DNA of 49,559 nucleotides from Bacteroidota bacterium (GTDB taxonomy: Bacteria > Bacteroidota > Bacteroidia > Chitinophagales > Chitinophagaceae), in assembly GCA_005883765.1 (NCBI GenBank), contig VBAQ01000157.1, positions 26,999 to 76,557 of the forward strand. The letters are read 5' to 3'. Made by a program: the position numbers and the translations under genes. Below are positions 44,270-46,911 of the stretch, piece after piece. Each line of letters starts with the position of its first letter. Position 1 is the stretch's first letter. The notes beneath the pieces are model-generated. The model was given only the letters and a program-made list of their open reading frames with translations, searched no databases and was not told the origin of the DNA.

Positions 44270-45214
44270 ATGTCTGTTCAGGAGCTAGAAAAAATTTTCC
44301 AGGCGAAAATCGATGACGAAGTGAAGATCGAGCCGAAAGATTGGATGCCGGAAAAATACCGGCAAAATCTCATTCGGCAGGTTAGCCAGCACGCGCATAG
44401 TGAGATCGTAGGGATGTTGCCTGAAGGAAACTGGATCACAAGAGCTCCATCCTTGAAACGCAAAGCAATTCTCCTGGCCAAGGTACAGGATGAAGCGGGC
44501 CATGGTTTGTATTTGTATTCAGCGACAGAAACTTTAGGAGTAACAAGAGAACAAACGATCAACGAGCTGCACAGCGGTAAAGCCAAATATTCCTCGATTT
44601 TTAATTATCCAACATTGACTTGGGCGGACATAGGTGCGATTGGTTGGTTAGTGGATGGAGCCGCCATATTGAACCAGGTAATGCTGACGCGGACATCTTA
44701 TGGACCCTATGCGAGAGCGATGGTAAGAATTTGTAAGGAGGAAAGTTTTCATCAGCGGCAAGGTTTTGAGATTTTGCTTGTTCTTTCAAGGGGATCAAAA
44801 GAACAAAGGGCCATGTGCCAGGATGCGGTCGATAGATGGTGGTGGCCGAGCCTGATGATGTTTGGTCCGCATGACAGTGATTCCACACATTCCGATCAAA
44901 GTATGAAATGGAAGATCAAAAGAAAAAGTAATGATGAGCTGAGACAAAATTTTGTGGACATGATCGCGGAGCAGGTAAAAGTTTTGGGGATGACTCTCCC
45001 AGATCCTCAATTAACATGGAATGTCAAAAAAGAGCACTATGATTTTGGAGAAATCAACTGGGAAGAATTCTGGAACGTGGTAAAAGGGAATGGGCCATGT
45101 AATAAGCAAAGGCTTGACGCCAGGAAAAAAGCATGGCAAGATGGTGAGTGGGTGAGAGAAGCAGCCGCGGTTTATGCTGAGAAAAGGAGGGCAAGACAAC
45201 AGGTTGCGGCTTAA
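44270..45214 (+). CDS. paaA: Phenylacetyl-CoA epoxidase catalytic subunit PaaA
   Basis: 314 residues from ATG 44270 ([11 protein letters not shown]); a TTG two codons earlier is discarded. PaaA is the ferritin-like di-iron subunit that epoxidises the aromatic ring of phenylacetyl-CoA. The iron ligands are in helix motifs [17 protein letters not shown] (Glu-x2-His) and [17 protein letters not shown] (Glu-x2-His). CoA-binding residues and the tail [20 protein letters not shown] are typical. First gene of the paaA-B-C-D-G-I run, all plus strand. Confidence 0.95.
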
Positions 45215-45234: not shown

Positions 45235-45627
45235 ATGAATAATTTTTTTAGAAAGCTTTATTACGGAGATATTCCTGAAGAAAAAACGGGAGCTGGATCG
45301 CAACAAGTTCCGAAAGTCTCCCCCACGGGGGGAGATTCAGAGGGCGCCTCTGATTGGCCTCTTTGGGAAATTTTTATTCGCAGCAAGCAAGGATTAGATC
45401 ATAAACACGTTGGCAGCTTACATGCAGCCGACGCGCAAATGGCCATTGAAAACGCCAGGGATGTGTACACAAGAAGAATGGAAGGCGTAAGCATTTGGGT
45501 AGTAGAATCAAAACATATCCATGCCTCCAATCCCGACGATGCAGAAAATTTTTATGAGCCCGCCGAGGACAAAGTCTATCGTCATCCTACTTTTTATGAT
45601 TTGCCTGATGAAGTAAAACACATGTAG
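45235..45627 (+). CDS. paaB: Phenylacetyl-CoA epoxidase subunit PaaB with a repeat-derived insertion
   Basis: 130 residues; typical PaaB has about 95. The conserved body starts at WPLWEIFIRSKQGLDHKHVG (about residue 42) and continues with HAADAQMAIENARDVYTRR, EGVSIWVVES and the C-terminal EDKVYRHPTFYDLPDEVKHM. Before it lie about 41 extra residues, including PKVSPTGGDSEGASD, encoded by a double palindrome (45317-45352) of the kind usually found in Bacteroidota spacers. PaaB bridges PaaAC units. The frame is intact across the element, so it is apparently translated. Confidence 0.9.
   Translation: MNNFFRKLYYGDIPEEKTGAGSQQVPKVSPTGGDSEGASDWPLWEIFIRSKQGLDHKHVGSLHAADAQMAIENARDVYTRRMEGVSIWVVESKHIHASNPDDAENFYEPAEDKVYRHPTFYDLPDEVKHM
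45317..45352. repeat. Palindromic element inside paaB
   Basis: Two hairpins in a row: TCTCCCCC (45317-45324), ACG, GGGGGAGA (45328-45335); then CAGAGG (45338-45343), GCG, CCTCTG (45347-45352). It is G+C-rich against the surrounding gene and stays in the paaB reading frame, encoding SPTGGDSEGA. Confidence 0.75.
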
Positions 45628-45628
45628 G

Positions 45629-45656
45629 TAGTTGACTGGTTGATTAGTTGACTGGT
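45629..45656 (+). repeat. 12-bp direct repeat between paaB and the S23 remnant
   Basis: TAGTTGACTGGT occurs at 45629-45640 and again at 45645-45656. Short tandem repeats of this kind often mark slippage or insertion borders. It lies where the S23-like gene has been placed between paaB and paaC. Confidence 0.5.
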
Positions 45657-45682
45657 CCAATGCCTCCTAAAGAGTTTACGTT

Positions 45683-46054
45683 ATGGAAGAAAAAAATCAA
45701 AGCTTTACCGAATTGGATGTTTGGAAAAAAGCCAGAATCTTGAAAAATGAACTAAAGGAAATTGCAGATAAATTTCCTCCTGAAGAAAAATATAGGCTCA
45801 CCGATCAATTGATTCGTTCTTCCAGATCCATTAACGCTAATATTGCGGAAGGTCATGGAAGATTCACATATAAAGATCAACTTCATTTTTGCATACAGGC
45901 TCGTGGTTGATTGAGCGAAACATACAATCATTTGATTGACGCGTTTGATTGTCGATATATTAATCACGATCGATTGAATTATTTTAAGATTCTGATCGAC
46001 GAAGTCGGTAGGTTGCTGAATGTGTATATTACTTTTTTGAGAAATAATCTATGA
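45683..46054 (+). pseudogene. Four-helix bundle (S23-type) protein gene with in-frame TGA
   Basis: The frame from ATG 45683 to TGA 46052-46054 (123 codons) contains one internal stop, TGA at 45908-45910. Before it: ELDVWKKARILKNELKEIAD and YRLTDQLIRSSRSINANIAE; after it, same frame: LSETYNHLIDAFDCRYI and LLNVYITFLRNNL. Both halves match the family, where the position of the stop is usually Ser (ARGSLSE), so TCA to TGA is the likely change. S23 proteins are encoded in 23S rRNA intervening sequences or stand alone; function unknown. The end overlaps paaC as ATGA. Confidence 0.8.
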
Positions 46055-46911
46055 ATAGAGAAAAGCTGATCAACCAATCAACTGATGCCCTAATCAACTA
46101 TACACTGCACCTCGCAGACGATGCTCTTATACTTGGGCATCGGAATAGTGAATGGTGTGGACATGGACCCGTATTGGAACAAGATATTGCCATCACCAAT
46201 ATTTCCCTTGACTTAATCGGCCAGGCAAGAAATTTTTACCAGTATGTTGCTCGCCAGATAAATGATTTTCAAAAAACGGAGTCTTCACAGGCGCCCTCTC
46301 TTTTGGAGAGGGGTTTTGGGGGTGAGGTCACTGAAGATACCCTCGCTTATCTAAGGGACAACCGTGAATTCAAAAACTGTCTGTTGGTTGAACAACCAAA
46401 TGGTGATTGGGCAAAAACGATCCTGCGCCAATTTTTATTCAGCGCTTATCAGTTCTATTTATACCAGGAATTACAAGACAGCAAGGATGAACAATTGGCT
46501 GCAATAGCGGAGAAGTCGTTAAAAGAAGTTACTTATCATTTGCGCTGGGGCAGTGAATGGGTAATTCGATTAGGTGATGGGACGGACGAAAGTCATCAGA
46601 GGATGCTGAAAGCGATAGAGGAATTATGGATGTATACCGGCGAACTATTTACAGCTACGGCTTATGAGTCGCAGGCAGTGGCCGAAGGATCGGGAGTTGA
46701 CGTGCGATTATTGAAAGCTCCCTGGGAAGAAAAGATAGAAGAAATATTTTCTGAAGCAACGTTGCCTTATCCCCCCTTATCGGGAGGGGGCAAGGGGGAG
46801 GCGGTCTTCCAACAAACAGGAGGGAAGGAAGGAAAACATACAGAACATTTAGGCTATATTCTAGCCGAATTACAGTTTATGCAGAGAACATATCCAGGAA
46901 GTGAATGGTAA
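46051..46911 (+). CDS. paaC: Phenylacetyl-CoA epoxidase structural subunit PaaC with two repeat-derived insertions
   Basis: 286 residues against about 250 usual. The ferritin-like body is complete: LHLADDALILGHRNSEWCGHG, ISLDLIGQARNFYQY, DTLAYLRDNREFKNCLLVEQ, QFLFSAYQFYLYQEL, EVTYHLRWGSEWVIRLGDGT and HTEHLGYILAELQFMQRTYP. Two stretches lack family resemblance, QAPSLLERGFGGEV (about 81-94) and LPYPPLSGGGKGEAVF (about 237-252), and both coincide with palindromic repeat DNA. PaaC stabilises PaaA and holds it in the complex. Both inserts are in frame and lie in inter-helix or terminal loops by eye. Confidence 0.9.
   Translation: MNREKLINQSTDALINYTLHLADDALILGHRNSEWCGHGPVLEQDIAITNISLDLIGQARNFYQYVARQINDFQKTESSQAPSLLERGFGGEVTEDTLAYLRDNREFKNCLLVEQPNGDWAKTILRQFLFSAYQFYLYQELQDSKDEQLAAIAEKSLKEVTYHLRWGSEWVIRLGDGTDESHQRMLKAIEELWMYTGELFTATAYESQAVAEGSGVDVRLLKAPWEEKIEEIFSEATLPYPPLSGGGKGEAVFQQTGGKEGKHTEHLGYILAELQFMQRTYPGSEW
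46294..46328. repeat. Palindromic element 1 inside paaC
   Basis: CCCTCTC (46294-46300), loop TTTTG, GAGAGGG (46306-46312), then GGTTTTGGGGGTGAGG. I recognise this pattern from spacer repeats in Bacteroidota. It is translated in frame as part of PaaC (PSLLERGFGGE). Confidence 0.75.
46771..46803. repeat. Palindromic element 2 inside paaC
   Basis: CCCCCC (46771-46776), TTATCGGGA, GGGGG (46786-46790), followed by CAAGGGGGAGGC. A second, different-looking member of the same G-rich repeat class. It encodes PPLSGGGKGEA within PaaC, just before the conserved HTEHLGYILAE helix. Confidence 0.75.

Follow-up and report, generated by a model that had tools for sequence, protein, structure and literature searches.

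In-frame three-block repeats in paaB and paaC of a Chitinophagaceae bacterium and their probable relation to DUF559 nuclease cassettes

Repeats within paaB and paaC

The analysed stretch of DNA (the window; 49,559 nucleotides, C144:26999-76557) belongs to a Chitinophagaceae assembly of 4.67 Mb in 403 contigs, hereafter the source genome. The data were assemblies alone, many of them MAGs, and genes were called with a home-made gene caller. On its forward strand the window carries paaA (44270..45214, from the list of open reading frames), a neighbour gene without insert, followed by paaB (45235..45627) and paaC (46051..46911). The frames of paaB and paaC are open throughout and both products match curated families, PaaB matching TIGR02157 from residue 41 and PaaC matching TIGR02158 and PF05138 as well as aligning with PDB 3pvr. 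An earlier note had described three G-rich palindromic hairpins within these intact frames, one in paaB and two in paaC, and all three were found again on the forward strand. The palindrome it described is present, but it missed a third, mirror block as well as the relation to PIT and BoxC repeats and the DUF559 cassettes reported below.

The paaB repeat (45317..45346) consists of the C-arm TCTCCCCC (45317-45324), the G-arm GGGGGAGA (45328-45335) and the mirror block AGAGGGCG (45339-45346), which matches the mirror of the G-arm at 7 of 8 positions. It is preceded by a conserved AAAG and encodes VSPTGGDSEGA. The first paaC repeat (site 1, 46294..46327) comprises the C-arm CCCTCTCT, the G-arm GGAGAGGG and the mirror block GGGTGAGG, encodes PSLLERGFGGEV and is of a BoxC/TM-like subtype; upstream of it lies the module CGGAGTCTTCACAGG (46277..46291), encoding TESSQ. 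The second paaC repeat (site 2, 46772..46799) has the C-arm CCCCCT, the G-arm AGGGGG and the mirror block GGGGGA and encodes PPLSGGGKGEA.

PaaB and PaaC were aligned with homologues from 29 relatives of the same order. The inserts in both proteins coincide with gaps in the homologue alignments, and they were not common to many genera. The proposal of the earlier note that the surplus residues of both proteins correspond to the hairpins held for about 10 residues of PaaB and, in PaaC, for 8-10 residues at site 2 and about 12-19 at site 1. However, PaaB exceeds its PDB homologues by about 38 residues, about 28 of which form a family-specific N-terminal leader (MNxxxxKYYYGDIPEE, window 45235-45320) that is common to many relatives and absent from solved PaaB structures; a few further N-terminal residues of PaaC derive from a different repeat. 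The site 2 insert was found in the source genome and in none of the 29 relatives aligned, and the PaaB insert was absent from the other genera aligned. Genome G222, from the same genus, has no insert at PaaC site 2 and a short remnant-like stretch at site 1, while its PaaB and GatB retain degenerate inserts. Judged from this comparison, the PaaB insert appears older than that of PaaC site 2. A different repeat copy occupies the position of paaC site 2 in G145. The alignments of empty and filled sites are too divergent to place insert junctions, a target-site duplication or a cleavage site to the base, and the single-sequence structure prediction of PaaC had a mean pLDDT of 36.

Site 1 of PaaC sits in a loop of naturally variable length among the 29 relatives, as would be expected if the inserts were ordinary loop-length variation carrying chance hairpins. 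A three-block finder was run on an unbiased 876 kb sample of the source genome, taken as stretches, with five dinucleotide shuffles as control. It gave 14 matches in the sample and 0 in each of the shuffles. Strict patterns searched across the whole genome gave 9, about 8-9 and 9 distinct places, and their reversed-pattern control gave 0. The paaB and paaC hairpins are thus not chance occurrences. Together with near-identical repeats elsewhere and with the frame and length bias described below, this makes loop variation with chance hairpins barely tenable.

A dispersed repeat with a mirror block and a reading-frame filter

The repeat is built of three blocks: a pyrimidine C-arm, a complementary G-arm and, 3-7 bases further on, the mirror (reverse) of the G-arm. 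Its length is about 28-34 bp, or up to about 48 bp including a left module, and its consensus reads AAAG-TCTCCCCC...GGGGG-CT. In a count of hairpins with a G-rich third block across all DNA analysed, which left out the strict pattern used for retrieval, the third block was closer to the mirror in 135 cases and to a direct repeat in 11 (sign test, p=3e-28), and a direct repeat was accordingly rejected as its description; perfect mirrors numbered 109 and perfect direct repeats 5, across about 45 arm sequences. A mirror block is a requirement of the antiparallel purine-motif triplex, and simple copying or inversion cannot make one. It could serve a purpose other than a triplex. The order of C-arm, loop, G-arm, loop and mirror G block is shared with the class II intrastrand triplex motifs PIT, BoxC and TM_ECO, and the published TM_ECO pattern (PMC4666352) is close to one subtype found here, CCCTCTCC-n-GGAGAGGG-n-GGGTGAGG. 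The repeat thus fits the class II layout, and triplex formation itself is a prediction; in E. coli, footprinting revealed no stable triplex in vivo (PMC4666352). The open-access papers searched included none joining intrastrand triplexes and Bacteroidetes, although an earlier description may exist elsewhere.

Unrelated loci and unrelated genera were found to share near-identical copies of the repeat. This speaks against DNA-structure-driven template switching at G-rich hairpins, by which inserts would be made or reshaped locally without transposition. Such rewriting of both arms together would account for subtypes that differ between genera at the same site, as observed at paaC and also at metG, where G188 carries a different repeat copy; but simple duplication or inversion cannot yield the mirror block, and we consider this explanation very improbable.

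The search for other copies, which the earlier note had proposed, placed 9 of the 14 copies of the unbiased sample in spacers although 81% of the DNA is coding, so that genes are a minority refuge for the repeat. The earlier suggestion of dispersed repeats inserted into coding sequence, as in Rickettsia, was borne out by further copies in genes and spacers and by homologues without the inserts. Elsewhere in the source genome, in-frame copies were found in about ten other conserved genes: metG, gatB, metH, adenine deaminase (ade), nadE, thyA, hemF, an RtcB-like gene, the glycogen debranching enzyme (GDE) gene and a GNAT gene. Homologues mostly lack these inserts, RtcB being the least clear case; empty sites were seen in homologues of PaaC, PaaB, NadE, GNAT, Ade, HemF, ThyA, GDE, GatB and MetG. 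In thyA, hemF and the debranching enzyme gene, an inverted repeat is separated by about 60-110 bases from a direct one, which is partly degenerate. Since the same repeats occur in so many other genes, the three insertions in one complex are not exceptional, contrary to the earlier note, and the idea that the Paa complex plays a special part was rejected.

The reading frames of the copies were surveyed for one strict repeat subtype on at least 118 named contigs (Mucilaginibacter, Chitinophagaceae, Prevotellaceae, Ignavibacteria and others). Among the matches listed, at least 33 copies lay in genes and at least 89 in spacers. Within genes the repeat core was 30 bases long in 31 of 33 copies, 29 in two and never 31, whereas among the 89 spacer copies lengths of 29, 30 and 31 occurred 11, 37 and 41 times. 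The excess of length 30 in genes (31/33 against 37/89) is significant at p=8e-8 among the matches listed, related copies not being fully independent. At this length, VSPxGGDLEGA was encoded by all 24 sense copies, and APSKSPPxGET or a similar peptide by all 7 antisense copies, again among the matches listed. All 31 therefore used one frame per strand despite a second stop-free frame on each (p=9e-10 among the matches listed, with the same partial dependence of related copies). Because the in-gene copies keep one length and one frame per strand, they are filtered at the level of the encoded peptide.

Two further arrangements of copies were observed. About 17 identical copies, several of them about 124 bp apart, form an array at G226:C15:49.7-62.0 kb that is unlike the dispersed pattern elsewhere. 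On Mucilaginibacter contigs (e.g. L221, L232 and L269), an intergenic copy often follows, at a distance of about 20 bases, an inverted copy that belongs to another subtype, an arrangement resembling paired REP units.

DUF559 nuclease cassettes bounded by the repeat

On contigs carrying leuS, about 170 extra residues of LeuRS were found to correspond, in a single frame, to an inverted repeat followed by a DUF559 domain, the short module SESSQ and finally a direct repeat. Such cassettes are about 450-550 bp long and hold two inverted repeat copies around a DUF559 gene, with the G-rich tails pointing outward. At 30 DUF559 loci of the family, a repeat was present within 160 bp upstream in 15, downstream in 17 and on both sides in 11, the tails pointing nearly always outward; no repeat stood beside any of 8 Y1 transposase loci or 29 paaC loci. 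Among 32 DUF559 domain matches across the phylum, the repeat was found upstream of 24, downstream of 21 and on both sides of 18, random windows giving 5.5 and 9%, and its orientation was more mixed than in the family. Strong DUF559 matches occurred in 16 of 17 genomes with the strict repeat versus 5 of 23 genomes without it. Some repeat-bearing genomes are poor in DUF559 (none in G225, two in G253), and solo repeats are far more numerous than DUF559 genes.

In-frame DUF559 domains were found in LeuRS (two sites), MetH (three sites), an IcmF-like B12-binding/MeaB fusion protein, chorismate synthase (aroC), adenine deaminase (ade) and CinA, and apparently also in type I restriction genes, while some other DUF559 genes are free-standing, with a repeat on either side. 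The source genome carries cassettes in frame in leuS (C369) and in the IcmF-like gene (C152). At the leuS site, among 116 family genomes, a gap of 385-628 bases occurred in 13, one of about 80-115 in three and none in most. The leuS gene of G208 (L388) encodes one LeuRS frame of 1315 residues that includes two different DUF559 cassettes. At L401, L403 and L411, DUF559 with flanking repeats lies within genes that appear by visual inspection to belong to type I restriction-modification systems.

Alignment of 16 DUF559 sequences revealed the invariant residues E21, R39, Q40, D49, E60, D62, H66, D75 and R78. The DUF559 profile matched PDB 3hrl and, more weakly, 3r3p, annotated as a "mobile intron protein", which we take to be the homing nuclease I-Bth0305I. 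Judged by these conserved active-site residues, DUF559 is an EDxHD/Vsr-type nuclease, in line with its previous placement in the EDxHD homing family (PMC9403480). As with the EDxHD homing endonucleases, conserved genes are reoccupied at the same sites. A tree of 49 DUF559 domains clustered by insertion site rather than by genome (16 changes against a shuffled mean of 29.9), and the first leuS site apparently holds several DUF559 lineages. Clustering by site is as homing would give, and vertical inheritance with losses fits as well. In contrast to the known EDxHD homing endonucleases, the cassettes have no intron and no intein domain. The cassette frames were open throughout and had no match to a group I or group II intron in Rfam; no Hint domain was found around the nuclease, and a domain scan of the cassettes returned only DUF559/REase and host domains. 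Introns and inteins were therefore rejected as carriers of the cassette, which must consequently be translated through and stays in the host protein.

Relation of the paaB and paaC copies to the cassettes and to known elements

Several observations connect the solo repeats with the cassettes. The leuS cassette of the source genome has the module TCGGAATCTTCGAAAG in front of its right repeat; this right-end module recurs as CGGAGTCTTCACAGG just before the paaC site 1 repeat and also precedes solo repeats in NadE and in LeuRS elsewhere. Moreover, the solo repeat in metH of the source genome has exactly the position that a full cassette occupies in G227. Against the connection, only solo ends were seen in paaB and paaC themselves, and a full DUF559 cassette in none of these genes. 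The inverted repeats flanking DUF559, the in-frame cassettes and the leuS right-end module at paaC site 1 make it most likely that the paaB and paaC hairpins represent DUF559 cassettes in solo or relic form. We put a probability of roughly three in four on the reading that they are short copies of a mobile three-block repeat that ends DUF559 nuclease cassettes homing into genes.

Alternatively, the repeats could be an independent, PIT/BoxC-like family spread by some host or transposon activity, which DUF559 uses as landing pads, so that the paaB and paaC copies would owe nothing to the nuclease. The great excess of solo copies over DUF559 genes agrees with this, as do the similar repeats of E. 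coli (PMC4666352), a species that was not among the control genomes with a DUF559 match. The outward inverted repeat pairs around DUF559, the right-end module common to full cassette and solo copies and the occurrence of solo repeat and cassette at one metH site argue against it, and we regard an independent family as unlikely. For the PIT, BoxC and TM copies of E. coli, exclusively intergenic positions and no known mobiliser are reported (PMC4666352), whereas the copies found here are often in frame within genes and also bound a nuclease cassette.

Rickettsia palindromic elements (RPEs) are about 150 bp long, end in CGTC and have no known enzyme (PMC10969869, PMC3733652). They share with the present repeats the in-frame translation of palindromes inside unrelated metabolic genes, an outcome (PMC10969869) that would also be expected if an RPE-type element, or a REP mobilised by a RAYT, had spread in Bacteroidota. 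RPEs are, however, about 100-150 bp long with a CGTC-tagged end, whereas the repeats described here measure about 30-48 bp, consist of three blocks, are associated with a nuclease and lack CGTC. REPtrons (REP and RAYT) and MITEs likewise have short hairpins around an enzyme gene and more numerous solo copies. In REPtrons, though, the enzyme is an HUH tyrosine transposase and not a DUF559/EDxHD protein, and the present repeats insert in frame within genes. No GTAG tag was found at the hairpin foot, and no Y1 tyrosine transposase was adjacent to or co-varied with the repeats. Y1 transposase numbers did not track repeat numbers and 0/8 of these loci were flanked, so that a RAYT/Y1 transposase was rejected as mobiliser; spread of an RPE or REP has little to recommend it. 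The likeness to MITEs holds in that inverted terminal repeats bound the enzyme gene and internally deleted forms occur in ThyA, HemF and GDE.

For the preferred reading, an origin in the DUF559 cassettes, the following course can be proposed. The nuclease would most likely cut an allele that lacks the cassette, and the break would be mended from a filled allele, so that the cassette is copied in. Such homing into empty alleles would explain why the same sites are occupied repeatedly. With neither intron nor intein to remove it, a cassette entering a conserved gene would survive where the host frame is kept and where the peptide it encodes is small and polar and probably lies in a loop; the inserts would presumably form surface loops that leave the host enzyme working normally. 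Internal deletion or insertion in trans would then give the two-end, MITE-like forms of thyA, hemF and the debranching enzyme gene, as well as the solo ends of paaB, paaC, metG, gatB and others. Both the nuclease-driven mobility and the descent of the paaB and paaC copies from this system are deduced from sequence comparison. In its widest form, to which we assign even odds, the proposal is that nuclease cassettes with potential-triplex hairpin ends constitute a mobile element of a new class. It would home into conserved sites of essential genes, be tolerated through translation and leave a permanent extra domain or peptide, the widespread BoxC/PIT-type repeats, including those of paaB and paaC, being its solo ends.

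PIT and BoxC repeats became known in the 1990s, and to our knowledge they have been assigned neither a mobiliser nor a function. A nuclease gene flanked by repeats of this type makes their origin testable. The proposal would mean that a selfish element can live in essential genes without splicing by staying in frame and being translated. The inserts in LeuRS, MetRS, MetH, ThyA, NadE and AroC, all universal enzymes, form a series of naturally acquired domains and loops in which the gain of protein segments can be studied, and cassettes and repeats would account for odd inserts in Bacteroidota annotations.

Finally, a four-helix-bundle gene of the 23S rRNA intervening-sequence protein family (TIGR02436/PF05635) was found between paaB and paaC at 45683-46054, interrupted by an in-frame TGA at 45908-45910. 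It is bracketed by inverted TTGATTAGTTGACTGG-type repeats at 45629-45656 and 46068-46095, the right one of which reaches into the start of paaC and gives the residues LINQST. The gene together with its repeats resembles a small cassette of a second kind within this operon.
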